From: Pomacea canaliculata
Taxonomy: Eukaryota > Mollusca > Gastropoda > Architaenioglossa > Ampullariidae
Reading direction: 5' to 3'
Assembly: GCF_003073045.1 (NCBI RefSeq)
Contig: NC_037596.1
Span: 29,768,184 to 29,832,183 of the forward strand
DNA length: 64,000 bases
Under the pieces are notes generated by a model. That model did no database searches. It had not been told where the DNA came from and saw only the letters and a list, made by a program, of their open reading frames with translations. Shown here in pieces: positions 17,542 to 59,926 of the stretch (the first letter of the stretch is position 1; every line of letters starts with the position of its first letter). Made by a program: the position numbers and the translations under genes.

Positions 17542-17602
17542 ATGATGATCAGCTCAGTCCTCAGTGTCTGTGTGATGTTTACTCTTCTACTACAAGGTTT
17601 GA
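17542..17602 (+). CDS. gene B exon 1: signal peptide
   Basis: Two adjacent ATGs start a hydrophobic leader reading SVLSVCVMFTLLLQG after MMIS. The donor a/gtaagt leaves phase 1, compatible with the SRCR1 exon (next codon AAT, then AQLQVRL). The exon is nearly identical in gene C. Confidence 0.75.
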
Positions 17603-20687: not shown

Positions 20688-20972
20688 GTGTCCTTTATTA
20701 CTTTTATGTTCGACATAGTTACAATGTAATATAGAGAGGTTTATATAAAGCTAGTAAGATGCTTCTTCTGAGGTATGAAATGTACAACACATTTACTTAT
20801 TCATTCTAGAATAGAAAAAAAGATTTTTACTGTTAGGTACAGTTGTTTTCATAAATTTGATATGAAAGTGTCTTACGTAAATCAACAGAGGAAAAGAAAA
20901 GTTTTGTTTTCCAGTCTGTAGGTAATCAGATTTGCTGTAGCTCGTTACGAATTCACTTTCATGGTTGATTAG

Positions 20973-21123
20973 ATGCACAGCTGCAAGTCCGGCTTGTGAA
21001 TGGAACTGCCCCGTGGAATGGCGGCCTTGAGGTGTTGTACAGAGGAACATGGCGCAGAGTGTGTGACCGTAGGTTTAGAAAACAAGAGGCACAGGTGGTC
21101 TGCAGGATGCTGGGCTTCAACAC
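20973..21123 (+). CDS. gene B exon: SRCR1, first half
   Basis: It encodes AQLQVRLVNGTAPWNGGLEV, VCDRRFRKQEAQVVCRMLGF. Acceptor gattag, donor ac/gtgtgt, phase 1 to 2, 151 nt as in C and D. Against gene C I count 9 changed and 2 silent codons. Confidence 0.8.
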
Positions 21124-21191
21124 GTGTGTAGCTTGATGTTGTCTTGTGTTTATGTGCAGTGTAATTATATTTGATTTTTTTATGTTATATT

Positions 21192-23091: not shown

Positions 23092-23261
23092 GCCGCACGT
23101 TTATCCCTCGTACCTAGTTGTGTACAGTACGAGCAACAACGATATCAGGTTTGCTGACCTGAGGTGTACAGGCGAGGAGACCAGCTTAGAGAAGTGTAGT
23201 CATACAGGGATTAGCAGTGACACCTGGTGCCGCAATGTCGTTGCTATCACCTGTAACTCAC
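23092..23261 (+). CDS. gene B exon: SRCR1, second half
   Basis: It encodes IRFADLRCTGEETSLEKCSH, DTWCRNVVAITCNS with four cysteines. Acceptor tcaaacag, donor c/gtaaga, 170 nt. It differs from gene C at about 21 amino-acid-changing and 3 silent codons, while the following intron is about 95% identical. Confidence 0.82.
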
Positions 23262-23597: not shown

Positions 23598-23739
23598 AAA
23601 ACATACAGGTGAGATTGGACGGCATCTCACCTAACAGAGGTCATGTAGAGATAGACATCGGAGTTGGTCGTTGGGGGAGAGTGTGTGTGACATCTAATAT
23701 CACTGCCAGGGTCGTCTGTAGACAGCTCGGCTTACCATG
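23598..23739 (+). CDS. gene B exon: SRCR2, first half
   Basis: It encodes KNIQVRLDGISPNRGHVEID, VGRWGRVCV and ARVVCRQLGLPW. Acceptor gttacag, donor tg/gtaagt, phase 1 to 2. About 13 changed and 2 silent codons against gene C. Confidence 0.82.
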
Positions 23740-24267: not shown

Positions 24268-24416
24268 GCTTGGTGCGAGGACGTTTTTAGAGATCGTGGG
24301 TTGGTTCCAAAGTGATTTCCCATCTTGCCTTGGGAATGAGACTAGCATCACTGAGTGTCAATATGAGAAGTCTAGTGACGGAGTCTGCTGGTCTCACATC
24401 ATCACTTGCATTGACT
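24268..24416 (+). CDS. gene B exon: SRCR2, second half
   Basis: It encodes LGARTFLEIVGWFQS, SCLGNETSITECQYEKSSDG and IITCID, with four cysteines. Acceptor tgtttag, donor t/gtaaga. About 21 changed and 2 silent codons against gene C, with the SCLGNETSI core invariant. Confidence 0.8.
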
Positions 24417-25234: not shown

Positions 25235-25492
25235 ATCTTGTCAACATCCATGCAAACAGTAGCAGATATCCTTTAATGGAGGAAACCAGTGCTACTTTAA
25301 AGTGTGCGAGCAATAAAGAGTCTGGTGTAATAAATTACACGTGGCCAGAAAATGCAGGCGGGTTCCCTGATGGCAGTAGCCTGATCATCACTACAGTGAC
25401 CAGGGAACATCATGGAAACCGAGTGAGGTGTGAGGTGATCTACAGTGATGGTGAAGTTGTCTCCAGTGACACACTGCAATTACAGGTTTACT
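25235..25492 (+). CDS. gene B exon: Ig1
   Basis: It encodes NSSRYPLMEETSATLKCASN, INYTWPENAGGFPDGSSLII and GNRVRCEVIYSDGEVVSSDT. The two Ig cysteines and core tryptophan are present; sequons NSS and NYT are seen. Acceptor tttacag, donor t/gtgagt, 258 nt, phase 1 to 1. Confidence 0.85.
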
Positions 25493-25687: not shown

Positions 25688-25984
25688 ATCGCCCGGTTAT
25701 CAGAATAACACGGAGTGATAATCAGGGTCAGCTCCTGTCCACCTCCTCTGAGGTCATCAAGGGTCACAATGTGACGTTTGTGTGTGACGCTGACAGCAAC
25801 CCGCCTCCTGCTTCCATCACGTGGTCAGGGAAAGTGAGCAGCACTACTGGGGAGCTACACATCATAGCAGCACAGCAGACGACACACGACGGTATCTACA
25901 CCTGTACCGTGGTCACTGAGACAGCTGTTGATGATGAACGCCTTCCACTGAGAGCATCTTACCAGCTTGCTTTTGTCGTTAAAG
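25688..25984 (+). CDS. gene B exon: Ig2
   Basis: It encodes RPVIRITRSDNQGQ, VTFVCDADSNPPPASITWSG and HDGIYTCTVVTETA, an I-type Ig domain. Acceptor tttacag, donor g/gtatcc, 297 nt, phase 1 to 1. Reading through the donor gives a stop at 26047-26049. Confidence 0.85.
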
Positions 25985-29517: not shown

Positions 29518-29775
29518 TTTCTGTCAACATCCACACAAACAGTAGCAGATATCCTTTAATGGAGGAAACAAATGCTACTTTAAAGTGTGCGAGCAATGAG
29601 CGGTCTGGTGTAATAAATTACACGTGGCCAGAAAATGCAGGCGGCTTCCCTGATGGCAGTAGCCTGATCATCACTAGAGTGACTAGGGAACATCATGGAA
29701 GGCGAGTGAGGTGTGAGGCGATGTACAGTGATGGTGAAGTTGTCTCTAGTGACACACTGCAAATACAGGTTTACT
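29518..29775 (+). CDS. gene B exon: Ig1' (duplicate)
   Basis: It encodes NSSRYPLMEETNATLKCASN, INYTWPENAGGFPDGSSLII and GRRVRCEAMYSDGEVVSSDT. It is the same length as the first Ig1. Coding variants such as TN, R and AM are shared with gene C rather than with the first Ig1, suggesting conversion or a different duplication order. Acceptor taaacag, donor t/gtgagt. Confidence 0.8.
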
Positions 29776-30096
29776 GTGAGTATATTTATCCGACAACAAT
29801 GAATGTCATGAATAAAGCTGCTTAGTGATCGATATCATTTAGTTTTCTAAAGTCAATGAGTTCAACGTTTAAGAGCTCTATTACTTGAGTAAAAACTAAA
29901 CACGTGACTAGACGACGGTAGAAAGGGTTTTAAGTAGAAACTGTCATTGGTGGGTTTCATCTTGCTTTTTCTGTGCGTGAGTATTTGTGTGTGTAAATTA
30001 TCTATGTCAACAAAAATAACTACTCCTGCACCAAACATCTTTCTGATTGAATAGATTATATGTTTGACCAATATCGTTCTATCGGCTTGTTTACAG

Positions 30097-30393
30097 ATCG
30101 CCCGGTTATCAGGATAACACGGAGTGACAATCAGGGTCAGCCACTGTCCACCTTCCCTGAGGTCATCAAGGGTCACAATGTGACGTTTGTGTGTGACGCT
30201 GACAGCAACCCGCCTCCTGCTTCCATCACGTGGTCAGGGAAAGTGAGCAGCACTACTGGGGAGCTACACATCATAGCAGCACAGCAGACGACACACGAAG
30301 GTATCTACACCTGTACCGTGGTCACTGGAACAAACGGTGATGATGAACGTCTACCACTGTCGACAGCTTATCAACTTGGTTTTATCATTAAAG
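30097..30393 (+). CDS. gene B exon: Ig2' (duplicate)
   Basis: It encodes RPVIRITRSDNQGQPLSTFP, VTFVCDADSNPPPASITWSG and HEGIYTCTVVTGTN, nearly identical to Ig2. The acceptor is ttacag. The donor g/gtattc has no identified partner downstream; read-through ends at 30599 with a tail partly derived from a foldback repeat. Confidence 0.78.
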
Positions 30394-30537: not shown

Positions 30538-30820
30538 GTAACGGGATGAATCTTCCCAGCAGGACTAAACGTCTCGGTATAGTCTGCACCTGCGCATAAA
30601 GCGAAACTTCACTTCGTTATCACTGCATAGCCATTTTTTTCTTTTCTTTTCTTCGCCGATTTACTATAACATTTTTACTGTTACTATTTTACTTGTTAAC
30701 TCGGCGAAGAAAAGGAAAAAAAAATGGCTACGCAGTGATAACAAAGTGAAGTTTCGCTTCATGCGCATGCGCAGACAATACCGAGACGTTTAGTCCTGCT
30801 TGGAAGTTTCATCCCGTTAC
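30538..30820. mobile_element. foldback (long inverted repeat) element
   Basis: The left arm (about 30538-30663), starting gtaacgggatgaa, is the near-exact reverse complement of the right arm (about 30699-30820), ending ttcatcccgttac. Arms of about 120 bp, with roughly 90% or better identity by eye, surround a loop of about 35 bp. A MITE or foldback transposon is likely; transcribed RNA would form a long hairpin. Confidence 0.8.
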
Positions 30821-40203: not shown

Positions 40204-42640
40204 TTATTTACCTCGTGAATTCGGCCAATTACTGTGGTCCTAGTCTATGTGCCCGGCCCAGACTTCAACCTTGCAGCTGAGCACATTGCAGACACATATA
40301 ATCGAGCGACAACAAGATCAGTTGATCAGCCTGTGTTTTTGCTCGGTGACTTCAACCTCTGTGATGTCAGTAAGCTGCTCCCCTGTCTCCATCAATACGT
40401 CACGTGTCCCACCCGCCTCGACAGAACTCTAGACAGGTGTCTCGGTAATGTGCCGGGTGCTTATGTATCCAAGTGCTGGGCAGATCGGACCACAACATTG
40501 TTCATCTGCTACCCACATACAGACAGCTCCTTACATACAGTACATACAGATAACTCCTTAAACGTGAAAAGCCGACAACACTATGTATTAGGACCTGGAC
40601 AAATGAAGCAACTGAGCTGCTCAGAGACTGCCTAGAGGCCACTGACTGGGATTTGTTCTTCACTACCTGTGGAGCCAACCTGGACTGTCTGGCAGACCCA
40701 ATCACCTCTTACATCACCTTCTGTAAAGAGTCTGTCATCTATACCAAGCAGATCTGCAGCTACCCGAATAACAAACCATGGCTAGGTAAAGGACTGAAGC
40801 ACTGTCTCAATGAAAAGAAGATAGCTTTTATGCAAGGAGACAAACAGAAAGTGAAAGAAAAGGAGAAGGAGTTCAGGGCAAAGGCAAGAACAGCTAGAGT
40901 GGAATACAGAAAGAAGGTAGAAAAGCAATTAAGTGAGGGCAACGCAAGGGATGCTTGGAAGGGCCTGGACACCATGATGGGTAGAGAACGCAAGACACAA
41001 AGAGTAAAGTGTGATGACCCAGTGACATTTGTTAATGAGCTCAACACTTTCTACGCGCGGTTTGATGCGAGAGACTTCAGCAATGAAGCAGAAAGTATCT
41101 GTTCTTCACTGTCGGCAGCCACTGTCACAATCTGTGAGGGAGCTGTTGTCAGAATTCTCTCTCATGTGAACCCACGGAAAGCCCCTGGACCTGATCACGT
41201 GAGAGGCAAGGTACTCAGTGTGCTAGTCAGCTGAGTGGTGTTTTTACCAGACTTTTCCAGCTCTCCCTTGACTCTCATAGTGTCCCCCGCGTGTGGCGAA
41301 CATCAACAATCATACCAGTGCCAAAGAAGCCTAATGCTACAAACTTGAAAGACTTTGGACCTGTGGCTCTCACGTCTATTGTGGCCAAGTGTTTGGAGAG
41401 GGTTGTGGGAAGATTGTTAATCCCCACCATGGCTGATCGCCTGGATCCTTTGCAGTTTGCCTACAAGCCACGCAGGGGGGTGTCTGATGCAACTCTCACG
41501 CTTTTAAATACTATCCTACAACACTTGGACACTTCTGGCACCTATGTTCGGGTCCTGTTCATGGACTTTTCCAGCGCCTTCAACACGGTCCAGCCACACC
41601 TTCTTGTACAGCGCCTACTAGACCTGGATGTCAACACTGGCCTAGTTCTATGGATCAGATCATTCCTGAAGGACCGATCACAGAGGGTGGGTCTCAGAGT
41701 TCCACCGACAGGTACTATAGGGTCCAGCAGCTCGTCTGACGGAGTCAATTTGTCAGTGGATGGAATGATTCTGTCAGATGAGCAGATCCTCAACACGGGT
41801 ACCCCTCAGGGATGTGTGCTTTCCCCCCATCCTGTTCTCTGTATATACAAATGAGATTACTATTAGCAGTGCTATTCTCAAACTTGTTAAATATGCAGAT
41901 GACATGGCCCTTGTGGGCTGCCTGAAAGACGAGCAGTCCCTGTCACAGTACCTGGCCTGTGTGGGGGAACTGGAGGAGTGGTTTATCAGCAGCTTTCTGG
42001 AGCTAAACGTTCAAAAAACGGAGGAGATGGCCTTGGAAGAGCATACAAAGGAAGAGATGTCACAACCCCTCTCTCCCCACCAGTCCAAATCAGGGGACAG
42101 CAGGTGCAGAGGGCTGTTGTGTTCAGGTACCTTGGTACAGTGATCGACGGGAGGCTCTCCTTTAGTGATCACGTGAACCAAGTGTACAGACAGGCCCAGC
42201 AACGGCTGTACCTTCTGAGGAGACTCCGCAGCTTCCACGTCAGCTCTGGGGTGCTGTAGACTGTGTACAGGTCTCTTGTTGACAGCATCCTCTCATTCAA
42301 CATCGCTGGCTGGTATGGTCACCTACTAATCAAAGACAAGGCAAGGCTGGCCAGAATCATCCACCAGGCAAATAAAATTATTGGTCAAGCACAGCTGCCA
42401 CTTTCTGACTTGTACCTTCATGCAGTCAGAAGGATGGCACATAACATCATTTCGGACCTGAAACACCCTCTCCACACCAGCTTCCAGCTGTTGCCCTCAG
42501 GCAGGCGCCATAAAGTACCACGTATACGGAAAGCTGTCTACCAGAGGTCATTCGTGCCAGCAGATATCACCATCCTAAATAAAGGCACAAGGACTCAGGA
42601 GGAATCAAACAGAGACTGAAGAGGAGAGGGTGCTGACATC
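40204..42640 (+). mobile_element. decayed non-LTR retrotransposon (LINE), endonuclease C-terminus to RT C-terminus
   Basis: The + strand frames give FLLGDFNLCDVSKLL (endonuclease), CPTRLDRTLDRCLGNVPGAY, YPNNKPWLGKGLKHCLNEKK, NPRKAPGPDHV, PVPKKPNATNLKDFGPVALT, VLFMDFSSAFNTVQP (RT palm aspartate), GTPQGCVLSP, VKYADDMALVG (catalytic YADD), FRYLGTVIDG and AGWYGHLL. The open segments are 40234-40635, 40653-41234, 41291-41854, 41778-42143, 41978-42259 and 42263-42619, joined by frameshifts and stops, so it is inactive. Domain order is that of a CR1/L2/jockey-type LINE; the clade is not certain. The 5' end (start of the endonuclease) is missing. Confidence 0.85.
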
Positions 42641-42829: not shown

Positions 42830-43264
42830 CTACTCATGACAAAGCTCAACCTTCTGTACAGGGTGAAGAGAACTACGCACATCTTTAATTTGCACTGAGA
42901 AGTCATGAGACTCGAAACGAGCAAAGAAGACATTCCGAGCATTAGGCATGGCCGTACTCTCAACGCCTGAGATCGAGATTTTGGCTTTCGACCCCTGACT
43001 CCGACCGTCAATATTGGCCATGTTGTTGAGTCCCTGCCAAGCTACTCGGATGTTACCTGTAGCAAACTGAGACTCGATTTTGGACTTGTGCTTCACCTTC
43101 ACCCAACGGATAGCATCACGAACCCCTCTATGTACCAATCTTCTGTCGTGGGCAGAACCCGTGAAGAACACATGTTTCTTTTTGTTACGCACTGCTTTAA
43201 GGTCCTTGGTCACCCGAGGTTTGTTGTTAGGATAAACATAAACTGTTTTGATGGAACGGTGCAA
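42830..43264 (-). mobile_element. inverted fragment of a related LINE
   Basis: The minus frame encodes VYVYPNNKPRVTKDLKAVRN, RVAWQGLNNMAN and NVFFARFESHDF, homologous to the linker between endonuclease and RT in the + strand LINE just upstream (YPNNKPWLGKGLK, DAWKGLDTMMG, NTFYARFDARDF), but in opposite orientation. Confidence 0.75.
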
Positions 43265-43435
43265 TCTACACTTTTTTACTCCTAACTTTTACTCCTAACT
43301 TTTACTCCTGTGTGTTAAATGTCTGTATGAGTATGTATGCCTGCCCTTGTGAGCGAAAACCAAATTTGTGTCCTGGGTCTCCTCGACAGATAATAAAGTC
43401 TGTTTTGATTTTGATTTTTTTTTTTTTTTTTTTTT
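43265..43435 (+). mobile_element. LINE 3' tail
   Basis: Repeated cttttactcctaa units, a tctcctcgacagataataaa stretch and an AT-simple end (ttttgattttgattt followed by a T run) resemble the 3' tail of a LINE copy. It presumably belongs to the 40.2-kb element, interrupted by the inverted fragment. Confidence 0.5.
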
Positions 43436-43998: not shown

Positions 43999-44056
43999 AT
44001 GATGCGCTCAGTCCTCAGTGTCTGTGTGATGTTTACTCTTCTACTACAAGGTTTGA
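43999..44056 (+). CDS. gene C exon 1: signal peptide
   Basis: It starts at the first of two adjacent ATGs and encodes a leader with SVLSVCVMFTLLLQG, followed by donor a/gtaagt in phase 1. It is one codon shorter than in gene B. Confidence 0.75.
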
Positions 44057-45493: not shown

Positions 45494-45644
45494 ATGCACA
45501 GCTGAAAGTCCGGCTTGTGAATGGAGCTGCCCCGTGGAATGGTGGCCTTGAGATGTTGTACAGAGGAAAATGGCTCCCAGTGTGTGACTATAGCTTTAGG
45601 AAACAAGAGGCACAGGTGGTCTGCAGGGAGCTGGGCTTCAACAC
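45494..45644 (+). CDS. gene C exon: SRCR1, first half
   Basis: It encodes AQLKVRLVNGAAPWNGGLEM, VCDYSFRKQEAQVVCRELGF. Acceptor gattag, donor ac/gtgtgt, 151 nt, phase 1 to 2. Confidence 0.8.
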
Positions 45645-46171
45645 GTGTGTTATGTTTTGTGATCTTATATGCCGTACAATTATATTTGTTTTTTCATGTT
45701 ATATTCACGATAAAAAGATGATATACTACAGTTTCTTAAGCGGTCATTTAACTTTCGTCTTATTCTAACCACTGTGCTCCATACCGCTTAGAGATAATCT
45801 TTTTATATAAGATACAATAAGATAAAAATTTTGATGCAGAGGGCATTGTGTGTCTGTGTGTAAGTGTATCATTTGTATACAAAGAGAAAAAGGAAAAAAA
45901 GGGACAATTAAGTAATATCAAAAGCAAGTAGACATACAATAATGAAACAAGTTAATAAATATGTCGTTAGTACTGATTAAAAATTATTGACTAATTTATT
46001 GTGTATAACTAAAATCAGGTAATAAAAGCAATGCGCCTGCATGTATATGCGAATTGTTTTCTGGAAAAAGTGTTGATTGTGACTGCATTTAGGCTATATC
46101 TATTAAAATAAGTCGGTAAATTCTATAGATTAAAAACAGACAAATACACAAACATACCTTTTGTCAAACAG

Positions 46172-46341
46172 GTCGCAAGTTTATATCACGTCGCTATTTA
46201 TAAACAGTGAGAGATACAACTATATCAGGTTTGACAACCTGAGGTGTACAGGAGAGGAGACCAGCTTAGAAAAGTGTAGACATACAGGGTTTAGCAGTGA
46301 CCCCTGGTGCCGCTCTGTCATTGGTATCACCTGCAACTTAG
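46172..46341 (+). CDS. gene C exon: SRCR1, second half
   Basis: It encodes IRFDNLRCTGEETSLEKCRH, DPWCRSVIGITCNL with four cysteines, 170 nt, acceptor tcaaacag and donor g/gtaaga. The first third of the exon is the most diverged from gene B. Confidence 0.82.
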
Positions 46342-46682
46342 GTAAGAATCTGTTGTTTCTATTCTGTTGTTTGCTGTGTCGCATTATGTATCCTCAAATG
46401 AAGAAAAAGAAACATTGACACATTTACCGTTTTTATGCAAGAATTCCTTACAAAAGAGATATTAAGCATGCAAGAATATCTGGAGATTAGATAAAACACA
46501 TGGTGTATCTTCAAAACAAATAAAATGTTAGGACTTAACTATATTGCAACGCATCTTAATTATATAAATGATTTTTGTCTTTTTGTTGATATAAAAACAG
46601 TTTTCTCTGCACAGATACTGAAGTGGTAATGCACATATCGGCAAACTTATAGAGACAGTAAATATCTGACGGCTTGTTACAG

Positions 46683-46824
46683 AAAACTTACAGGTGCGAT
46701 TGAACGTCATCTCACCTAATAGACATCAGGTAGAGATAAACATCGGAGTTGGTGATTGGTGGACACTGTGTGTGGAGTCTGACAACACTGCCAGGGTCGT
46801 CTGTAGACAGCTCGGCTTACCATG
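46683..46824 (+). CDS. gene C exon: SRCR2, first half
   Basis: It encodes KNLQVRLNVISPNRHQVEIN, DWWTLCVE and ARVVCRQLGLPW. Acceptor gttacag, donor tg/gtaagt. The second part of the exon, tail included, is identical in B and C. Confidence 0.82.
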
Positions 46825-47360
46825 GTAAGTTCTTTTCTCCTGTTAGTGAACGAGTCTGTGGAAAGATGATGAATAGATTCTACTGAAATTACACAATTTA
46901 AGGGAATGAACTATCAACCTTGCTAATCATTAAATGCTGATTTTGAAACTTTACATTTTACACACACAGCTAAACACATATCTAAAATTGTTCACCTGTT
47001 ACTCCATCCATCCATTCATTCCTCAATTGCGATCTATCTCTATCCCTTTAAAATGAAAATGCTTGACATGAGCTACTTCAAGTGTAACAATATAGATCTT
47101 TTATATTTATATAGTGGAATAAATAAACGCCTGTAATATAGATGTTATGCTCTCATTATCTATCTACATAAATACTGATCTATGAATGCAGACTGTTGTC
47201 GTCTGAATTATACCATGATCTATTTATTTATCTAACCTTGCACGATACGGATGCATAGCACATAAGTTCTTCTAAATTAAGAACACATGAAGCATTTTAA
47301 TTAAGCATTAATAATTATCAGAACAATTGTTTTAAGCAAAAGGTATTCTGCCATGTTTAG

Positions 47361-47509
47361 GCTTGGTGCCAGGACGTTTGTATATGAACACATTCAGATC
47401 CGTGGTGATTTGTTATCTTGCCTTGGGAATGAGACTAGCATCGCTGAGTGTCAGCATGAGGTGTCTAGTGACGGACACTGCCATGACTACAACATCACTT
47501 GCAAAAACT
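47361..47509 (+). CDS. gene C exon: SRCR2, second half
   Basis: It encodes LGARTFVYEHIQIRGDLL, SCLGNETSIAECQHEVSSDG and NITCKN, with four cysteines. Acceptor tgtttag, donor t/gtaaga, 149 nt. Confidence 0.8.
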
Positions 47510-48232
47510 GTAAGAACTTCTATTTTATAAAAGTAAAACTCATCAACGTGTGTACAATTTGTATGTTTGTTTAACAAATGAAACTACATGTTTTGCATAT
47601 GAAATACAGAAATAAAATATTGTAACTGTTTTCAGTCTCATATTCGACTAAATGTGTAAATCTTTTCCGCAAATGCAGCCAACTAAAGGGATGTAACTTT
47701 CTATAAAAAAAACCCGCTACTACTGCCTCTTTAACACTATATGTTTTACTTTTACTGTCTTATCAATGTATTCTCCTATCTGTTCATACATGTTTATGAT
47801 AAACCTGTCTTACCCTTACTGTTTTTTTCCCATCACTTCATTCAATAATGTTAAGTTTCAGTCTAAGTCACACCTGATATAATTTTAAGAACCTAACGAA
47901 AGGGTATGATAAAGATCTTTTCTGTTAAATAAATAAAATAAATGACTGTTCAGGAAAAAAAACCTTATAGCTTTAATTTTTTTTAATGCCTTGAGGAAAC
48001 AAAGGGGGCATCGTTGCAATATTTAGCTATGCTAAAGAGGTGTTTGTTCATTATAAAATAATTAATTACCAACGAGAGAGAGAGAGAGAGAGTGAAATAT
48101 AGATTTAATTACATATTTTGCTTAAGAACGTTTTATAAAGAGCAGAAAGATGAAGTAGTTTGCTACATCTTTGTGCGGAGGCGATTTAATTGTTAGTTTA
48201 ATGTCGCTAACAGTTTCAAGTGTTTTTTACAG

Positions 48233-48490
48233 ATATTGTCAACATCCTTATAAACAGTAGCAGATATCCTTTAATGGAGGAAACAAATGCTACTTTAAAG
48301 TGTGCGAGCAATGAGCAGTCTGATGTAATAAAGTACACGTGGCCAGAAAATGCAGGCGGGTTCCCTGATGGCAGTAGCCTGATCATCACTAGAGTGACCA
48401 GGAGACAAAATGGAAGGCGAGTGAGGTGTGAGGCGATGTCTAGTGATGGTGAAGTTGTCTCCAGTGGCAGACTGCAATTACAGGTTTACT
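48233..48490 (+). CDS. gene C exon: Ig1
   Basis: It encodes NSSRYPLMEETNATLKCASN, IKYTWPENAGGFPDGSSLII and GRRVRCEAMSSDGEVVSSGR. 258 nt. Against the first Ig1 of B I count 18 changed and one silent codon; against Ig1' 14 changed and 3 silent. Acceptor ttttacag, donor t/gtgagt. Confidence 0.85.
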
Positions 48491-48700
48491 GTGAGTATTG
48501 TGATCCAATAGCAATGAAAGTTAGAAATAAGGCCACTTAGTCATTGAGAACATTTAGTCTTCAAGGAAATGAGTTTGCTCATTGGGGGCGACTAGGATCA
48601 AGAGAGATTATTTGAGTTAAGAAAAAAAAGACATGTTATTAACTGACAGAAAGCTTTATGTTTGAGCTGCCACTATTAGTGGGTCTCACATCTTTTTTTC

Positions 48701-48761
48701 GTGTGTGTGTGTGTGTGTGTATACGTGTGTGTGTGCGCGCGCATACGTGTGTGTGTGTATT
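48701..48761. repeat. (GT)n-rich microsatellite
   Basis: An alternating gtgtgtgt tract with a few interruptions lies in the Ig1-Ig2 intron of gene C. Confidence 0.85.
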
Positions 48762-48859
48762 TGCATGCAAGTGTCAACAGAAACACTTCAGGTTCATACA
48801 CTTGTGGAATTCGATACATGATATATGCGATGAATCATAATCTATTGGCTTGTTTACAG

Positions 48860-49156
48860 ATCGCCCGGTTATCAGGATAACACGGAGTGACAATCAGGGT
48901 CAGCCACTGTCCACCTTCTCCGAGGTCATCAAGGGTCACAATGTGACGTTTGTGTGTGACGCTGACAGCAACCCGCCTCCTGCTTCCATCACGTGGTCAG
49001 GGAAAGTAAACAGCACTACTGGGGAGTTACACATCATAGCAGCACAGCAGACGACATACGACGGTAACTACACCTGTACCGTGGTTACTGAAACAGATGA
49101 TGATGATCAACGTCTCCCACTGAGGGCATCCTTTGAAATTGCACTTATCGTTAAAG
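48860..49156 (+). CDS. gene C exon: Ig2
   Basis: It encodes RPVIRITRSDNQGQPLSTFS, VTFVCDADSNPPPASITWSG and YDGNYTCTVVTETD. 297 nt. Against Ig2 of B I count 13 changed and 12 silent codons. The donor g/gtatta has no identified downstream partner in this gene. Confidence 0.82.
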
Positions 49157-49690: not shown

Positions 49691-49822
49691 GTTTGGGCCT
49701 CATCGTCCTTGGCGATCTGAGATGCACAGGTGAGGAGTTCAGGTTAGATGATTGTGACTATGAAGGATTTTGAAATGATGATTGCAGTCACATTGAGGAC
49801 GTTGGTATGATCTGTAACACCC
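49691..49822 (+). pseudogene. relic SRCR second-half exon with stop codon
   Basis: It translates as LGLIVLGDLRCTGEEFRLDD, then CDYEGF, a TGA stop, and NDDCSHIEDVGMICNT. It matches gene D exon 53061-53233 (SGLIILDDLMCTGEETSLDQ, NDCSHSEDVGIICST), and the intron downstream also matches for several hundred bases. The 5' quarter of the exon is missing. It marks a lost gene copy or a segmental duplication from D. Confidence 0.75.
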
Positions 49823-50275: not shown

Positions 50276-52380
50276 GACGAAATATCTTCCTAGGGCCCCG
50301 CTTTTGATTAATATGGTTTGATGCTGAAGTGTTCCTAAAGCTTTTTCAGTTCATTGTTTTATTTTTAAGGTCATAGATGTTGCTCGCTAGATATGCTTTG
50401 TTATTGTATGTTGTCCTTGTTCAACTTGTTGCTTCAACACTTCAGTCGCTTGTTGTAGGCTTTCTAAACGGTTCACTATTTTATTGCTTGTAGTTGTTAC
50501 AGTGGGAAAGGCTTCTGTGAGTAGGTCTGTCGGTCGCATGACTGATGTTTACTTTTTGAGTCACATTATCTGTCCTCTCACACTGTCGCTCTTGTATTCC
50601 TTGGGAGTCTGTGGTGTTTTGAGTGGAAGTGCTTAACATACTATCGTCGGAGCTAGTTAATGTTTCATCCTTCCTTTAGTCTTTTTTCAGGGGCCATCTT
50701 TTCTTGAATCACAAGAAACCAAACAACTAACACAGTCGTACCACATCCCCCGCAAGGCACAGTTCAGCAGCTTTCCACAGAAGTGAGTACAAGTCACCGC
50801 ACAGTGTACTTCTCAACTGCCGCACTTTCCTGCTTTAAATTTCACAATAATTGCGTTGGGAATCCATCGAAAGGTAATATTTTGAAGCAAACTGTAAAAA
50901 AATGACACTTGAAAGTGTTTAATCCAGTCAGCTGGCCAGAAAGATTTAAAAAAATGCTTACAGACATTTTCTTCACACAGAGACACAGACACGTCCAGCC
51001 TCTGCCCTGTTCATGGCTCACCTCCCTAACGTTATCTTTTATAGTAAAGAAAGAGAGAGAGAGACTAGGAACACAAAATTAGGATGTAGAAAGATGTATA
51101 CTTCAAAAGTTTCCGAAAATAGTAGCTTTATTTCTTGCTCTTGAGCTGAAAAGCGCAACTAAAACTGTGCATGGCATCACTTTACCTACCTGTGTTTTTG
51201 AGGCAGAATGTCTAGTAGTAAAAACTGCATGAGAATGGCAAAAATATATCAAGTTACCGCAAACACACACACACAGAGTTGTAGAGAGTCACACAAGTTG
51301 TAGGCTTCATGAAGTTACCTCCTGTGTTCCACCACAATGGTGGCGTTTTGATAACTGATTAGCTCAAAACCATCATTAGTGACAGTGAGTGTGAAAGTTC
51401 ATGCAATCCTAATCACCTAATATGCAACCTCTGATTATTTTTCGCTCGACCTAAACACATGCTGGACATAAATAAACTGTAAAGGCAATGGTATACCTAG
51501 AGCAGCACACATGCCACCCACTGGACACATGTAGTGAATAGGAAGCCAGACGGGATGGCGATGTAGTTGCAGATCGAGATACTAGGGAAAGGGGGTAAGG
51601 AGTAAGTATTAATTAGAAATTATTAATTGTAGTGTGAGCAGGAATAAGTCAAAGTGATCACCTGTCCATCATGTGTAAGCTACGGAGTGCTTGGATGTAC
51701 CTAGGTAGCGGAATGGTCGGAAGTAAGTCTGAAGTATGTTTGACTAATCACGAGAAAAGATGATCCTAGCAGATGAGGAGTTAACATTGTGATCAGCATA
51801 GAATCGTTGCATTCGCACTGTTCTCTCGAGGAGAAAAGTTGTAACAGCGCTTCATCACCAGCAGCTGTTTGGTTGCAAACAGTAGAGGCTGAGGCTGGTA
51901 GATAAGGAGTCCAGCCTAGAGGACGAGAGATACGTGGTGGCACACGGCACTGCCAGTCTCCCAGTCTCTCTTTTTCTATCTCTCACACACACACACTTAC
52001 TGGGTTACATTTAGTTTTCCGTCCATAAATATTTACAATGTAATGAAGGATTAAACCATCACTAAGTTTGATGCCTACCCAAACTGCCAAAGAAATATAG
52101 TAAATATTGACAATTGCACTCAAATTAAATGGAAAAAAGCAAAAGAAAATGAAAAATAGTTTATATATATATAAAACAATCATGAAGGCACATACACACA
52201 CAGAAAGGAGCATAAGAGCACGGACACAGAGACATCGGTACAAATATAAAAAGTCACACAAACAAGACGAGGAAAACATTCGTGCGAAACGAAAACTAAT
52301 GTTATTATTAGTCAATATTCCTTCCTTTTTTTCACTCCAGTTCTTCCTATATTGAAACATTTTAATTTGTGCATCTTTGC
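50276..52380. other. intergenic spacer C-D
   Basis: No gene recognised. A few simple GA and CA tracts occur (about 51053, 51265, 51980). Gene D's promoter should lie in the distal part, but no specific element is identified. Confidence 0.4.
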
Positions 52381-52401: not shown

Positions 52402-52456
52402 ATGTTCGTGGTGACTTGTATTTATTCAGCTTTTCTTCTTCTGATGCCATATGTCG
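52402..52456 (+). CDS. gene D exon 1: signal peptide
   Basis: It encodes MFVVTCIYSAFLLLMPYV, a compact hydrophobic leader, with donor g/gtaagg in phase 1. It is homologous to the startless relic at 20633-20687 but unrelated to the signal exons of B and C. Confidence 0.8.
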
Positions 52457-52715
52457 GTAAGGTGTCTTTTAAAAAGTTCTTTACGACTGATGAAAATTAA
52501 AAAAAAAAATACAACGTAGAAAGAATAATATGAAGTAATAAATGGCTACTTTTTCATTGTGAACTGTCTGGTACATTAATTTTCTTCCCCAGAATATTCA
52601 TGGAATATACACATTTAACACAACATCTTACTTAGCAGGAACTTTTTGATGTGCAAAATTAGGGATAGAACAATTTTCAGTAGCTCATTGCAAATAAACT
52701 TGTATGATTAATTAG

Positions 52716-52866
52716 ATGCACAGCTGAAATCTCGGCTTGTGAATGGAACTGCTCCGTGGAATGGCCGCCTTGAAATATTGTACAATGGAACATGGGGCAC
52801 AGTCTGTGACGATATTTTCGGGAAAGAAGAGGCGCAAGTGACCTGCAGGATGCTTGGCTTCGTCAG
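52716..52866 (+). CDS. gene D exon: SRCR1, first half
   Basis: It encodes AQLKSRLVNGTAPWNGRLEI, TVCDDIFGKEEAQVTCRMLG. Acceptor aattag, donor ag/gtgtgt, 151 nt, phase 1 to 2. It is the most consensus-like SRCR copy. Confidence 0.85.
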
Positions 52867-53060
52867 GTGTGTAACATTTTATGGTCTTGCATTTATGTGC
52901 AATTTCATTATATTTACTTCGTATGTCACACTTGCAATGTTTGTTTCACCATTTTGATATATCAATTCTGAGATTTCGTTTATTTAGCTCGATTCCTTGC
53001 ATTAGTCAACGAAAGTATTTGCTTATTTCTCGAAACAAACAAATATTAACTGTTCAACAG

Positions 53061-53233
53061 GTCTCAAGCGTTGGTGGTGGCGTCATTCATGTACGGAGGA
53101 GGCTCGGGCCTCATCATCCTTGACGACCTGATGTGTACAGGCGAGGAGACTAGTTTGGATCAGTGTGACCATAGAGGGTTTACCGAAAACGACTGCAGTC
53201 ACAGTGAGGATGTTGGTATCATCTGCAGCACTC
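53061..53233 (+). CDS. gene D exon: SRCR1, second half
   Basis: It encodes MYGGGSGLIILDDLMCTGEE, LDQCDHRGF, NDCSHSEDVGIICST with four cysteines. 173 nt, as in gene A SRCR1 and SRCR2. Acceptor caacag, donor c/gtgagc. Confidence 0.85.
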
Positions 53234-54468
53234 GTGAGCACACGCTCTTCATATTTTCTGGTTTCCTGTATCCCATGTTTTTGTGACTATGCTGAGAGAT
53301 ACAAAACGAAGAGAAGAGATATTTACAGAACTAAAATTGACGCACTTAATATTGTCTGTTCACTATAATTCTATAATAAAAACCCTATTTTCCTTAAAAA
53401 AATTATGCCAGTGTAACATGCTGTCTTTTAATATCAAATACAACTTGAAAATGAATCAAGGGCTTAATACGACAATTCATATATATTATTAATAAATTTC
53501 TGTCTGCACAGGATAAAGTTTAAAAATAATGTTTATTTTAAGTATGATCGACTAATTGCATATCATAACTGGATCATTGGAGTCTTGTGTCCTCGAAACA
53601 ATTTATCTTAAGCTTTATTTGACCTTAAGAGTTCTAGCTGTTATCTAATTCTAAAGCACAACTGGTTTCTCAAAAATCCCCAAAACATGACTTATACAGA
53701 GAGTTTCACACATTAAAACTGCAAAACAGACCTAGAATGACACAATAGGTCAAACAATTGAAACAGCGACCGGAAAGAAACCCGGAACAAGCAAACGAAA
53801 AGAAAAGCAAATGGTTAGTGCATGAGTAGTGCGAGTGTTAGCGTGTTTCATGATAAGTGTAGTTATAGATACAGGAAGAAAAAGATAACAAAGGAAACCT
53901 TATGTAAACCTTGCTGCAGCAATGGCTATGATTTCCTTCTACAAACCTGAAACAGTAAGGTCCTTGACACAACTAAGTTTAGATATGACATTTGCAAACA
54001 AAACAGATCCACAAAATCTCGGAATAAAAACGATACAATTTGCCTCTGAGTATATCTTAACCGATACTTGTCTCAATTTTCAACACCATAACCATTAATT
54101 ATTAAAAACAATAATAATCATTCAGAGTACATTACAAAATAATAGAGTTAGTGTAAGAAAGCAGAAAGCTTGAGAGATTTTGGGCTTAAACTAAAACTTG
54201 AAGTGAAATATCACGACAATAAATTTGTTGATCATTTCTAAATTCCACAACAAATTAGACACTCGTCTCTTGGTGCTGTTTCCATTATAAGTTCTGGTTA
54301 TGGCACACCAGTTCGAAAGGTATTCTCGAAGTCTCCATTACGAAGAGAGCAAGGAATGTCATTTAGTTTTGCACGTTCTTTGCTTTGCGAAGTTAACAAT
54401 CGTAACTGTAAAAAAATCAATTTATGGCACAAAAAGGGAGATACAATTGTCATACCCGACTGTTACAG

Positions 54469-54619
54469 AACCTGTGAAACTGCGTTTAAGGAATACTCAA
54501 AGCTCTAGCCCTTATAAAGGTCGGGCAGAGATGCAAATTGGAGGGGGCCACTGGATCGAATTGTGCACATCTGATAATAATATGGCCAAAGTCGTTTGCA
54601 GACAGCTTGGGTTATCATC
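54469..54619 (+). CDS. gene D exon: SRCR2, first half
   Basis: It encodes EPVKLRLRNTQSSSPYKGRA, GHWIELCT and AKVVCRQLGLSS. The acceptor is gttacag, like B and C; an open frame extends upstream to 54300 but is intronic by homology. Donor tc/gtaagt. Confidence 0.8.
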
Positions 54620-55120
54620 GTAAGTTCTTTTATTTACGATGTGAATAAGTCTAAATAATGAACTCATATAGTGAAAAATAATGAGCATGTGAATTAGTTA
54701 TATATGTAAGATACGCTTTTTATAATAGTCTCATTAATCCGCATATCTAATCCCATCCGTCTGTTAATCGATTCATCCACTCATCCCTTTCACAAACATT
54801 TTACATAAATACTTCAAACTGAAACACATGTCTCCATAAAATAGCGAAAAAAAAAAGAAAGCAAAAATAAGAAAAAGTTATTAATTGGCCTTTTACGTTT
54901 TTCTGACAAGAAATTATAGATATCCACATATCTAGTCATCTTTTAAGTCAAAGGTTATTTATATAAAAATCCAGATTTATTGCTCGATCCACACAGCTAT
55001 GGATACATTAAACGGAGAATAAATTAAATAATCTTTGACTTGAGGGTGAGCAAGCCTGATATAGTTATGTGTATTATCCATGGTGATGTTCTCGATATAT
55101 TCAGCTCATGAACATTTAGG

Positions 55121-55458
55121 TACAGGTAGTCCTCGGGTTACGACGGTCTCGAGTTACGTCGTTTCGTGGTTACGACGCTTTATACAACGCTCATTCCGAC
55201 TTACGAGGTTTAGCTTCGTAAGTCGAGGTGTACCTGCGCCTCATTACACGTGCGGCACAATAGTTTACTGTACTTATGTTTATTGATAATTATGTAGGGT
55301 ACTGTGTTAGGATAGGTGTTTGGATAGGCTAAGTGTTTGCAGTACTGTACTGTTATTATGGTACAGTACTGTATGAACGTATGATCCGACTTACGTCGAA
55401 ATTCGGTTTACGACGCCGCGTAAGAAGGATCAACGTCGTAAGTCGAAGACTACCTGTA
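55121..55458. mobile_element. mariner/Tc1-type MITE
   Basis: The 338-bp unit begins tacaggtagtcctcgggtta and ends gtcgaagactacctgta, imperfect terminal inverted repeats of 25 bp or more with TA at each end. Interior phrases such as gttacgacg and cgacttacg are in inverted repetition. It lies in the SRCR2 intron of gene D. Confidence 0.8.
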
Positions 55459-56142
55459 TTATAATCTATAACCAGGTTAAATGAGGCGTCAACACTGCGG
55501 TGATCCTCAGTAAGAAACTCCTGTACCTCCTACACAAATCTCAAGTTTTTCTCTGTCAGCTCTGTAATTCTCATTAGGTCTTTCAGTCCTGGGTTGAGAA
55601 TCTTATCACTGTATCCTTCATGTCCTGGTTCCATAGCCTCTCCCTAGATAAAATGCACGGCATTGCCTTCCTTGTTAATGCATGTTTCAAGATCACCGAG
55701 ATGAAGCAGACAGACTTTAGTAACCACAAATTTTAAGGAAGGCATCTGTATCCTCACTGTTCCTGATCATGTGTTGGCATGTGAGTTCTCACTCTTGTAG
55801 TAACCACAGATACGCGATGCCTTTGGGCAGAAGGAATCATCACCACAATTGCACGTGCTGTGTATTTGATAAATTCTACTGGTAGTGATGTTGCGTTAGC
55901 ATAAGGTCTACAGTACATTAATTGTTACTATAATATATTTATTAAAAATTTATTCACTGTCGTCAGCATGTATATGTATATATTCATCTGTGTATTGCTA
56001 GTGCATGAACATCTATAAATCTTAAGTGCAATTTTCATTGTGGATTAATAAAGTTGTATTGTATTGTAACCTTAACATTTAAACAGTAATAGCAGGCACA
56101 CGACAATAACATGTTAATAAAAAGGCACTCTTTGATGTACAG

Positions 56143-56336
56143 GCATGCTGCGATATTTACAAATGCATCAGTAACTGAGATGAGTTTATATGGAGAAAGA
56201 GAGCGCCTTACACCTATGTCCATGTTTATTTGCCTTGGGAATGAGACTAGTCTTTTTGAGTGCCAACAGGCTGCAGATTCTACTGCAGGTTATTACTACA
56301 GATTCTGCGACATGGATTACATCATTTGTGATGATT
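56143..56336 (+). CDS. gene D exon: SRCR2, second half
   Basis: It encodes AAIFTNASVTEMSLYGERER, FICLGNETSLFECQQAADST and DYIICDD. The CLGNETS core equals that of B and C. At 194 nt it is longer than the 149 nt of B and C because of a longer N-terminal part. Acceptor tgtacag, donor t/gtaagc. Confidence 0.75.
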
Positions 56337-56961
56337 GTAAGCTTTTTTTTTACTAAATAAAAAATTCTAGCAAATATTTTAGTTTTTATGCAGTATATGA
56401 TGTACAAACGCTTGCTTAGTGTATGAAAACTATATTAATTTACTCATAATTATGGAAAATAAAATCATTATCTGCATCATGCTTTCTTGAAAAGAAAGGT
56501 ATTCCTAATGGGAATGTTTACTCTTTTTCACAGAAGCAAAATGTTACTTATCAAATGATATTTGTCTAGTGTTCACACTGCAATATTATCTTTTTTCCTT
56601 TTCCTCAGCATTAAAAAAATGCGTATATCAATTTTCTGTTACCCATTTTGAGTACAATTCCCTGTTAGGTTATACCAGTATATATATATTTACAGCCCAT
56701 TATGCCGGGTTAACGAATACAGCGTCAGATTAGTGGTTGGAGTTAAAAAGGGAAAATTCTGTTTGCGAGAGAAAAAGAAAAACGTTTGTACGGGAATGGA
56801 CATTTGCCTTTATACTTAATTCTTATCCTTAACGCAGTTTTAAAAACCTGTTTAAAATAGTTCATGATCAAACAATTCTGGCAAGGACGTTTTCACCAGA
56901 AAGCTAAGCATGATGTTATTTTTTTATTATAAGCTAATATACTGTTTGTCCTATTGTGCAG

Positions 56962-57246
56962 CACTTTATCTTCGCATACTGTTTGACGATTATTCATATC
57001 CGCCATTGGAAGGAACGAATATGTCTCTAGAGTGTGAGAGAGCACAGTCTCTTCAGTCAAATGTTGACTACTGGTGGTACAAGGACTCCAGAGAGGTTTA
57101 TTTGCCCTCTTTTTTTGAGAAAAGCTTGATCTTTAATAAGGTGACCAGTCAACATCAAGGTCTCAGAGTGCAGTGTATGGCCAGGTACAACTACAATGGA
57201 CTTATTTACAGGGAAGCTAGTGACACCTTGGTCATACAGGTTTGCT
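56962..57246 (+). CDS. gene D exon: Ig1
   Basis: It encodes YSYPPLEGTNMSLECERAQS, VDYWWYKDSREVYLP and GLRVQCMARYNYNG, ending VIQVC. The Ig cysteines and tryptophan are conserved. 285 nt, acceptor ttgtgcag, donor t/gtgagt, phase 1 to 1. Confidence 0.8.
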
Positions 57247-57838
57247 GTGAGTATTGTCTAAGTTCTTGTAGCTGTCATGGACTACATGGCTCTTTTCCAT
57301 AAGGTTTATGATAGACAAATTAAACACCTAAAATAACAGTTTTAACGGTCTTTGTTTGTGCTCAGTAATTCTTAATTTATTCAATCATGTAACCTAGTAC
57401 ACTAATTACTAGAATACAAACCTTTTTCACCATTTTTACCATACACTCTGATATAATGTTCATGTATTCATATATGCAGGAATCCAAGAATAATGATCAT
57501 TTTATCTAAAGATGTAATTATGCTGATACGACTACAGTTGTAGACATAATAAAAATAATTTTGATGGATGTTTTGCTCCTCTTGTGTATACAGTAGCACA
57601 AACGCTGCATAATACAATATCGAACTTACGAATTCAATGTAAAACGGACAAGAAGCTTGCATTTATCTTTGGCAGACTTCCTATATGTTATATACGTCAC
57701 CAAGTGTATACTTTTATAAATAGTTTGTGAAAGGCTTGAACTAATGAAATGGAGACATTGTTATATATGTAATTAAGAGAGCACGATATAGAGAAAACAT
57801 TGAAAGAAATTTGTACAACTGATTGTCCTGTTCTGTAG

Positions 57839-58168
57839 GTGCTCCTACAATAAATTCCACTGACGGACCACCGCCAGCTTTATCCAGTATCGGTGATGAA
57901 GGACATCTCAGCATTGAAATGACAGCCCACCCCACCCCTCACCTGATAAACATCACCTACCTCGGACCAGTCTTGAATGAAAGTATTGAAGGCAAAAACA
58001 TTGGAAACTCTACGCTCGTTGACTGCGTTGCTAACCTCGTGTCACGTGCTTCAGTCACGTGCTCCATTACCATCTTCAACATCTCACAGGCTGCTGAAGG
58101 CTTTTACAAGGCTATTTTAGGCAACAGCCTCGGGCACCTGCCTTTCATATTTAAAGTAAACCGTAATG
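57839..58168 (+). CDS. gene D exon: Ig4, membrane-proximal
   Basis: It encodes APTINSTDGPPPALSS, IEMTAHPTPHLINITYLGPV, SVTCSITIFNISQAAEGFYK and LGHLPFIFKV. 330 nt, identical in length to the gene A exon. Sequons NST, NIT, NES and NIS are present. Acceptor ctgtag, donor g/gtgagt. Confidence 0.82.
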
Positions 58169-58624
58169 GTGAGTATTAACAGTCTGCTATCAAACAATAT
58201 ATAAGTTTTAAAACCATTTTGTTTTTTATGAACTCTGTACTTACGTCTCTGATTTATTTTGTTATCGATTTAGCTAGGATTATGTATTTTTTGACATATG
58301 AAATTTCGAACGTGTTCTCACGAGTGCTAAAACGCTTAGAAAATTTCTTTGTTAGCTGGTTTCTAAATTTAGAAAAAGCACAAAAACCCAAACATTTTAC
58401 GCCCCTTAGGAATCGAGTACTACGCACAACTTTTATATTGCTTATTTAATAGCTATATACAACTAAATATTTTTTTAAATGTTATTCTATATACTGATTT
58501 GGATGCTGCTTAGTAGAAACTTTTACTATTAAACTACAAAAAATGGATACATGTAGAAATCATAGAAATACTGAATTCCTTGCAATCATGATTGTTATCC
58601 GACTGTACCATTATGTTTTACAAG

Positions 58625-58735
58625 TCGATCGCACTGGAGAAAGATCAAGTTTTTTGTTGACCGTCCGTGGTTCATCTCTTGGCGGAGCTGTCACAGTCAT
58701 CGCTGCAGCAATCTTCTTTATCTGTCACTGGAAAC
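58625..58735 (+). CDS. gene D exon: transmembrane segment
   Basis: It encodes VDRTGERSSFLLTVRG, then SSLGGAVTVIAAAIFFICHW and KR. The helix is about 20 residues and followed by basic residues. Acceptor ttacaag, donor c/gtgagt, phase 1 to 1. Confidence 0.78.
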
Positions 58736-59020
58736 GTGAGTTTCTTAGTTCGACTACGACTACTACTAACAGATGACTAGTATAGGAGGAGCAACATTAA
58801 TTACTAAGTCAAGAAGACATGAATGCATGAATGAATATTGCTATAAACACTTGTTGTTTTCTCTCAGCAAAACTTATTTTTCTAAACACGAATGTCTTCT
58901 GTTTAACATTCTGGGTACAAAGGAAAAGAGAAACAAATTAATAGACTGTGAAGCCAATGTCTGGCTTGATATGTCCATTTTACACGTTTTATTCCTGATA
59001 ACCTATTAATGGATCAACAG

Positions 59021-59185
59021 GTAGAAATAAGAGCTGTGAGACAAGACAGACGAGTTCAGAGAGGAAACAGTCGGCAGGAGTGCGTCTGGAAGAAATACCA
59101 GCTGGAGGTGTGATGAACGTGTATCACGAAGAGAAAACTGTCGATCGTGGAAAGAAGACCCAAAATGCAGACAAAGTTGATTCTT
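59021..59185 (+). CDS. gene D exon: cytoplasmic tail part 1
   Basis: It encodes RNKSCETRQTSSERKQ, PAGGVMNVYHEEKTVDRGKK and NADKVDS. 165 nt, the same as in gene A. NVYHEE is a further tyrosine in acidic context. Acceptor caacag, donor t/gtgagt. Confidence 0.78.
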
Positions 59186-59828
59186 GTGAGTCTCCAAGAT
59201 CTTTATAGTCCCAAAGTTGTCTGTAGATATAAAATATCATAAAACAAAGGTGAACGCAAAGTAAATTGAAAAATTAATATTGTAATTTTTCAAAACAACA
59301 AGTCTCCGTTCTTTTATGGTGTTAATATAAACTGGACGCAAATATGAAATTTATAAAAAAGCAAAAATATGTCTTCAGCTAGTATACATTGCTGATATCT
59401 AACATATATTCGCATAGATGTGAGCAAAAGTTTCTTATACATTTAACTCGTAAATGTAGTGTTTCAATGCTTGGAATTTGTGATAATATCTATTTCGCAA
59501 GATTCGGTCACAGTTCTTCATTGCTGAGGTTAACTCCGGAAGTACGAGAATCTGATGCTATGTGTTGCTTAAAACACGTCAATCGCGGGAATACCGTTAG
59601 CACATGAATCATTATCATCCAATATTCGGCAGGTGCAAATTGGGGATGACACATTAAAAAAATATAAAACTAATATGTATCTGTGCCAATGTTTTGTTGC
59701 ACAATTCCATCATGTTAACGCGGCCAGAAAGTACAAACGTTGGCTTTGTCAGCTGTTAAGACCTTCCGATAACTGAAAGATTGGATGTAAATGTTCGTCT
59801 TTCTTACATTAATATTTTTCTGCTACAG

Positions 59829-59926
59829 ACCCCATCTATGTCAACACTGCTGAACTTGCCGAGGAAAAAGATCACATCTACAGCAATGTTGGAGAGAGTG
59901 GAAGTGGACGGCAAAGGCATGAATAA
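59829..59926 (+). CDS. gene D last coding exon: tyrosine tail
   Basis: It encodes PIYVNTAELAEEKDHIYSNV then GESGSGRQRHE and stop TAA. It has two YxN-type tyrosines (YVNT, YSNV), 16 residues apart; the second also fits YxxV. The YVNTAELA block is identical to gene A. Acceptor gctacag. Confidence 0.82.

Follow-up and report, generated by a model that had tools for sequence, protein, structure and literature searches.

Diversifying selection on the SRCR domains of a tandem array of SRCR-Ig genes in the snail Pomacea canaliculata

Introduction

The FREPs and CREPs of snails are secreted proteins in which immunoglobulin (Ig) domains are joined to a recognition domain, and which are encoded by diversified multigene families. 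The gene families of venoms show accelerated exon evolution, with introns that are more conserved than the coding exons between tandem paralogues. The present study deals with a tandem array of genes in the snail Pomacea canaliculata, which encode two scavenger receptor cysteine-rich (SRCR) domains followed by Ig domains. Two of its copies, referred to here as B and C, lie in the window, that is, the whole stretch of 64,000 nucleotides that was analysed (G000:C7:29768184-29832183, in a 440-Mb assembly of 24 contigs). An earlier note on this DNA had proposed that the exons of the two copies have diverged faster than their introns, through the diversifying evolution of a recognition receptor.

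The accessible text of a 2022 review, which cites Gorbushin 2019, describes a P. canaliculata lectin with two Ig domains and an SRCR domain, possibly exclusive to the Caenogastropoda, and also names the CREPs (PMC9178244). This lectin is possibly either the array family itself or its long-form relatives, P0003 and P0005. In sponges and sea urchins, the SRCR families comprise many genes in tandem arrays, with a proposed role in immune recognition, and each domain is encoded by three exons in the sponge arrays and by one in the sea urchin, according to the available part of a survey of invertebrates, in which the main text, as far as it is accessible, does not mention Pomacea (PMC10855680). The cation-binding residues of the SRCR domains of DMBT1/SALSA, CD163, and MARCO are reported to be conserved in the accessible portion of a further source (PMC7043408). 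The rat lungworm uses Pomacea canaliculata, itself a major invasive pest, as an intermediate host, and the term SRCR does not occur in the available text of the genome paper of the snail (PMC6129957). In the open-access literature, none of the matches listed described this array or the selection on it.

Selection across the Array

Strong diversifying positive selection on the SRCR domains of this array is well supported. A genome search with 1 kb of copy C, in which the best 40 of 74 candidates were scored, recovered at least 48 matches, in at least 38 places after 5-kb merging, and further copies may exist. All of these places are on the + strand of contig C7, from 29,643,118 to 30,575,626 (0.93 Mb). 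Two of them, at 30,095,601 and 30,103,689, match the query in complementary halves, and could be a single interrupted copy, and three others (29,845,619, 30,022,022, and 30,477,523) are more remote, with similarity to the membrane gene described below as well.

Twenty-three copies were read (B, C, 20 fetched stretches, and L029, a near-twin of B), each with the exon order SRCR1a-SRCR1b-SRCR2a-SRCR2b-Ig1-Ig2, followed in many cases by extra Ig1-Ig2 pairs. In the fetched copies, exon ends were adjusted to an AG/GT lying no more than 15 bases away, with 119 of 126 remaining unshifted, one being unfittable, and two being refitted by hand. The frames are open, except that L018 has a frameshift in its first SRCR1 exon and that the first of the Ig pairs in L026 is broken, and the Ig2 exon of L029 is cut by the end of the fetched stretch; the rows left out were L018 (SRCR1), L026 (Ig1 and Ig2), and L029 (Ig2). 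The six SRCR cysteines are complete in 19 of the 22 SRCR1 domains and 22 of the 23 SRCR2 domains, and the Ig cysteine pairs are present in 22/22 Ig1 and 21/21 Ig2 domains. The cysteines and core residues are a frame that is kept in most copies, with selection acting on top of it.

The site models were fitted with purpose-written Python code rather than PAML, on FastTree topologies with branch proportions fixed from M0. The one-ratio omega (non-silent over silent divergence, dN/dS) was 1.59 in SRCR1, 1.84 in SRCR2, 1.05 in Ig1, and 0.61 in Ig2 (22-23 copies), and twice the log-likelihood difference (2dlnL) between M1a and M2a was 207, 143, 39, and 22, respectively. The selected class of M2a had an omega of 4.9 at 22.5% of the SRCR1 codons, and of 4.5 at 36.5% of the SRCR2 codons, with a posterior above 0.95 in 21 of the 109 SRCR1 columns and 23 of the 103 SRCR2 columns. 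Recombination is able to imitate such a signal, and in 16 null simulations, run with the SRCR1 parameters only, the maximum 2dlnL was 23.75 when a new tree was used every 10 codons (n=8) and 6.83 without recombination (n=8), and the SRCR signals lie far outside this range.

Estimates pooled over pairs were bootstrapped by codon (intervals in square brackets). The near-identical twins L018, L029, and L022 were dropped from these, the too-similar-tract tests, and the split-half tests, and were kept in the site models and the pairwise comparison of silent (dS) with intron (K) divergence. The pooled dN/dS was 1.37 [1.02-1.86] in SRCR1 and 1.48 [1.04-2.13] in SRCR2. Relative to the divergence of introns 1-4, dN was 1.39 [1.10-1.70] and 1.32 [1.04-1.66], and dS was 1.02 [0.77-1.31] and 0.90 [0.64-1.19], which means that the silent SRCR sites evolve at the mean rate of these introns. 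In a tree-free split-half check, the ratio of the non-silent to the silent difference (pN/pS) was 2.10 (SRCR1) and 2.26 (SRCR2) in the hypervariable columns, and 0.71 and 0.74 in the remaining SRCR columns. In the Ig exons, dN was only 0.45 (Ig1) and 0.41 (Ig2) of the intron divergence. The diversifying selection proposed in the earlier note is therefore upheld by the 22-23 array copies for the SRCR domains, but not for the Ig exons, where non-silent change across the family is slower than change in the introns. The Ig1 exon is also little diverged at both silent (dS 0.07) and non-silent sites across the family, while its adjoining introns have values of 0.21 and 0.36, a pattern that may reflect localised homogenisation or a recent spread of the exon.

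A non-silent excess is also seen in the recent twins B and L029, with differences at 22/673 non-silent, 2/188 silent, and 36/2045 intron sites. A transmembrane SRCR-SRCR-Ig gene at 52402..59923 (+ strand; NCBI P0028, LOC112569299), which has kept a canonical SRCR1 site, provides a control; a paralogue of it lies 252 kb upstream, beyond the first of the array copies recovered. In three of the four SRCR exons of this pair, pN is 0.032 (11/348) and pS 0.084 (8/96), and 79/1397 intron bases differ, which is ordinary constraint.

Divergence between Copies B and C

All the exons of copies B and C are on the + strand. In copy B, the coding part of the signal-peptide exon is at 17542..17602 (MMISSVLSVCVMFTLLLQGL; donor GTAAGT), SRCR1 is encoded by 20973..21123 (SRCR1a, starting in phase 1 and ending in phase 2) and 23092..23261 (SRCR1b), SRCR2 by 23598..23739 (SRCR2a) and 24268..24416 (SRCR2b), Ig1 by 25235..25492, and Ig2 by 25688..25984. 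In copy C, the corresponding positions are 43999..44056 for the signal peptide (MMRSVLSVCVMFTLLLQGL; start shared with the NCBI model P0004), 45494..45644 and 46172..46341 for SRCR1, 46683..46824 and 47361..47509 for SRCR2, 48233..48490 for Ig1, and 48860..49156 for Ig2. Model P0004 follows this reading from the signal peptide into Ig1. The introns are in phase 1 at the domain borders and in phase 2 inside each SRCR domain. The outer limits given in the earlier note (20973, 25984, 45494, and 49156) coincide with splice boundaries, and its description of intact cysteines and splice sites is correct for both copies, in which the frames are open and all six exons are flanked by canonical splice sites.

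The raw difference between B and C is 9.3% in SRCR1a, 18.2% in SRCR1b, 14.1% in SRCR2a, 26.2% in SRCR2b (the most diverged exon), 9.3% in Ig1, and 9.4% in Ig2. It is 8.0% in intron 2 (46342..46682 in copy C; 27/336 aligned bases), 9.8% in intron 3, and 13.3% in intron 4. The exons were said to outpace the introns, and this is true of SRCR1b, SRCR2a, and SRCR2b in relation to introns 2-4, but not of SRCR1a, Ig1, and Ig2, while the part of intron 1 that can be aligned, at its 3' end and immediately ahead of SRCR1b, differs at 15.8% (64/404), almost as much as SRCR1b itself, and intron 5, which aligns poorly, at 37% (65/176), more than any exon. In the first 180 bases of the intron after SRCR1, 10 bases differ rather than some 8, giving an identity of 94.4%, close to the 95% first estimated.

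When introns 2-4 are pooled (173/1570 bases, 0.110), the non-silent difference is greater in SRCR1 and SRCR2 together (0.181, p=1e-4) and in SRCR2b (0.283, p=1e-6), no greater in SRCR1a (0.101) and Ig1 (0.105), and lower in Ig2 (0.058), and the silent sites of the SRCR exons do not differ significantly from the introns. The excess over neutral DNA in this pair thus sits in SRCR1b and, chiefly, SRCR2.

The changed:silent codon counts of the earlier note (9:2, 21:3, 13:2, 21:2, 18:1, and 13:12 in the six exons) are exact, although they need to be divided by the available sites, of which there are some 3.5 non-silent per silent. By counting (NG86), omega is 1.38 in SRCR1a, 1.19 in SRCR1b, 1.27 in SRCR2a, 1.56 in SRCR2b, 2.00 in Ig1, and 0.25 in Ig2. 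By maximum likelihood (ML), none of the first five exons is significantly above 1, and Ig2 is significantly below it (p=0.004). Over the whole pair (388 codons), omega is 0.96 by counting and 1.18 by ML (p=0.43), and ML values of 1.90 (p=0.033) in SRCR1+SRCR2 and 1.97 (p=0.011) in SRCR+Ig1 refer to subsets picked post hoc, after the data had been seen. Over all its codons, the dN/dS of this pair is thus around 1, and it is the SRCR domains of the array that exceed 1.

Intron 4 is unusually alike in B and C for this array, with 89/681 differences in comparison with 137 expected (p=7e-6), and the low intron divergence of the pair is therefore probably due in part to a shared or converted tract.

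The Ligand Site of the SRCR Domain

The selected SRCR1 codons coincide with the homologues of the cation/ligand site of DMBT1 at four of five positions, and the sixth is deleted in 22/22 SRCR1 copies. Here, the DMBT1 numbering is presumed to correspond, by spacing, to the P0028 motifs VCDD, LDD, ENDC, and HSED, and the mapping is based on P0028, P0035, and P0018, the three sequences among eight proteins matched by the regular expression for the canonical domain. At D1019, D1020, D1058, D1059, N1081, and E1086, the canonical residue is found in 7, 4, 8, 7, 0, and 0 of the 22 copies, and any of D, E, N, or Q in 7, 12, 12, 19, 2, and 0. SRCR1 thus does not have the conserved dual cation-binding site, which is a functional feature that is not needed for membership of the SRCR fold. 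On this mapping, the selected residues appear to be placed in the ligand face of the fold.

Architecture and Secretion of the Product

The SRCR fold is present, with Pfam SRCR (PF00530) above the cut-off in P0004 (111.6 bits, two stretches) and P0001 (90.9 bits), and Ig_3 above the cut-off in the Ig2 domains of B, C, and the downstream second pair of B; Ig_2 was also matched in Ig2 of both copies, and Ig1 is a putative Ig domain. No fibrinogen or C-type lectin domain was found at E 0.001 in P0001 and P0004, both of which are partial models. The homologous proteins were the best 120 of 228 listed in one search.

Both B and C have signal peptides, and no convincing transmembrane or tail exon was found in the conserved downstream blocks or by hydropathy. 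These two observations suggest secretion. The "recognition receptor" initially envisaged is plausible, but the products are likelier to be secreted proteins than membrane-bound receptors. The hydrophobic stretches 30600-30746 and 50377-50490 passed the threshold, but are outside the blocks common to at least four copies, and were considered unconvincing. A further candidate tail exon at 20624-20689 (+), just upstream of the first SRCR exon of B, instead looks like the signal-peptide sequence of the membrane gene at 52402, its start codon replaced by ATA, and is a probable relic signal-peptide exon.

The NCBI models end in different ways. P0004 splices half of Ig1 to an orphan exon 3' of copy C (49696-49773, +), which encodes half an SRCR domain and is interrupted by an in-frame stop, and the model therefore contains neither the remainder of Ig1 nor Ig2. 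Five other models (P0001, P0002, P0008, P0013, and P0014) terminate by read-through into the intron after Ig1 (48491-48540, +), each with a short end peptide of similar sequence, VYCEY, followed by DP or GP, which is possibly a real alternative 3' end, producing a form with a single Ig domain.

Function and Alternative Explanations

The overall best explanation, and a probable one, is that the array is a secreted, diversified repertoire of recognition proteins. Copies B and C would be two of some 37-38 tandem copies on the same strand, with a probably secreted product, composed of a signal peptide, two SRCR domains of two exons each, and one or more Ig1-Ig2 pairs. The selected residues would make up the face with which the SRCR domain holds its ligand, each copy binding a different target, and the array would constitute a germline repertoire, while the constrained Ig part may provide a common function, such as oligomerisation, or attachment to an effector or a receptor. 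A large tandem family with diversifying selection in its binding domain is what was found here. The targets may, less securely, be microbes or parasites, and an immune role appears to be the best reading, albeit unproven. As the selected codons are listed (21 in SRCR1 and 23 in SRCR2), a direct binding test is possible.

A bolder version of this explanation is put forward tentatively, and is less likely than not. Here, a conserved, cation-dependent SRCR site would have become a hypervariable, cation-independent surface, and nearly 40 secreted SRCR-SRCR-Ig copies, shuffling their segments, would amount to a germline system of variable regions in which SRCR takes the place of Ig, fibrinogen, or leucine-rich repeats. 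If true, an ancient fold would have been put to a new use, its conserved SRCR ligand site giving way to a hypervariable one.

A number of results weigh against the diversified repertoire. The lower bootstrap limits of the SRCR dN/dS barely exceed 1, and the SRCR dS values (0.159 and 0.140) exceed the K of 0.115 of introns 2 and 3, which flank SRCR1b, SRCR2a, and SRCR2b, and pair by pair dS is above K in 87% (SRCR1) and 70% (SRCR2) of cases. The contrast between exons and introns is therefore due in part to something other than amino-acid selection, and the initial comparison with the intron after SRCR1 mixed selection with a locally low intron rate. In addition, the median K of intron 4 (0.21) matches the SRCR dN, and the pair B/C alone fails to reject neutrality across the whole gene. 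The site-model signals of Ig1 and Ig2 are near the level produced by recombination alone in simulation, and positive selection is thus not claimed for these domains. One null run without recombination gave 40 sites above 0.95 (class omega 1.20, 2dlnL 2.77), which calls for caution with single-site calls. The twins L017/L018 have no non-silent excess (6/650 non-silent, 6/184 silent, and 11/2029 intron differences, SRCR1 left out), and in L020/L022 both non-silent (40/896) and silent (15/253) differences are raised in comparison with the introns (49/2001), mostly in SRCR1, which looks like segment exchange. A conserved cysteine is absent from SRCR1 of L015, L019, and L026, and from SRCR2 of L024. 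The ligand site was mapped by motif in SRCR1 only, with the N1081 column adjoining an alignment gap, and the mapping of SRCR2 was abandoned, given its poor alignment to canonical domains. The terminal exon of B or C was not found.

The same selection might instead operate in a reproductive or egg-related arena, through sexual or gamete conflict rather than immunity, which is unlikely, although it is the most serious of the rivals. Reproductive proteins are often fast-diversifying. In the accessible text of a study of Littorina, a two-SRCR oviduct protein differs between sibling species, and a relative of it is found among the testis transcripts of L. arcana, but this protein also contains TSP1 and, in one of the species, parts of the C-type lectin kind, and Ig domains are not reported there (PMC8614816). 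The P. canaliculata lectin with SRCR and two Ig domains, by contrast, is listed among the soluble immune factors in the available part of the review (PMC9178244).

A recombination artefact, in which gene conversion homogenises the introns or imports divergent exon blocks without any selection, is improbable. Exchange itself has left traces, with 18 of 1672 pair-by-segment tests for too-similar tracts passing the Bonferroni correction, including intron 4 of B/C, and segment distances that are nearly uncorrelated among copies (Spearman -0.35 to 0.35 among introns), which fits either exchange or a star-like burst of duplication. The silent differences in SRCR1 of L020/L022 and the excess of silent SRCR sites over introns 2 and 3 also point in this direction. 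However, conversion shifts silent and non-silent sites alike, while the SRCR dS matches introns 1-4 and dN exceeds them; the 18 tracts are confined to intron 4 (9), intron 5 (8), and intron 2 (1), with none in the exons or introns 1 and 3, and none of the simulations with recombination came close to the values observed for the SRCR domains.

Relaxed constraint, with the copies drifting freely, or pseudogene decay, which the earlier note had already rejected, is highly improbable, given that drift cannot raise dN above the silent and intron rates, as in the SRCR domains of the array, and that, in spite of the damage in L018 and L026, the single cysteine missing from four copies, and the orphan exon with a stop, the frames are kept and the SRCR framework is intact in most copies, with the variation at the flagged sites.

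Other Features of the Window

A further open Ig1-Ig2 pair lies 3' of copy B at 29518..30393 (+; exons 29518-29775 and 30097-30393), with 90-92% identity to the copy's own pair. Intron 1 of B is some 1.5 kb longer than in most copies (21190-22670, +), and its length (1968) is similar to that of L029 (1761), located 392 kb away, so that the insertion is probably older than the B/L029 duplication. Between the gene copies, there are open stretches that resemble, by eye, proteins of retrotransposons without long terminal repeats (non-LTR), at 40219-42143 (+), 19225-19599 (-), and 42830-43288 (-), and Pfam found no match in 40554-41234, the sole stretch of this type tested.

Besides two SRCR units and several Ig-like exons, another SRCR/Ig gene at 6766-14130 (+) has a hydrophobic stretch near 13849-14130 that looks like an exon, and is perhaps a membrane receptor. 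The cytoplasmic tail of P0028 carries YVNT and YSNV, which resemble SH2-docking motifs, and this receptor may act as a signalling partner for the secreted proteins of the array.

Comparison with Known Systems

The plan of the FREPs and CREPs, a secreted protein with Ig and recognition domains, is similar to that of the array, in which the recognition domain is SRCR, whereas theirs is a fibrinogen or C-type lectin domain, neither of which was found in the partial array models P0001 and P0004. In the venom families, exon acceleration is also known, while in the snail array it is confined to the SRCR domains, with the Ig part of the same genes being constrained. The lectin with SRCR and two Ig domains shares its domain set, species, and clade with the array, although its account, in the accessible text, is silent on the size of an array, on selection, and on the mapping of sites (PMC9178244). 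In contrast with the sponge and sea urchin families, the snail genes have the order SRCR-SRCR-Ig-Ig, with two exons per SRCR domain, and the available part of the survey contains no exon-versus-intron or site-selection result (PMC10855680). The array has the SRCR fold in common with DMBT1/SALSA, CD163, and MARCO, and, by motif, the same ligand face, but where the site is conserved in those proteins, the homologous positions in the snail SRCR1 are mostly hypervariable, with one deleted.

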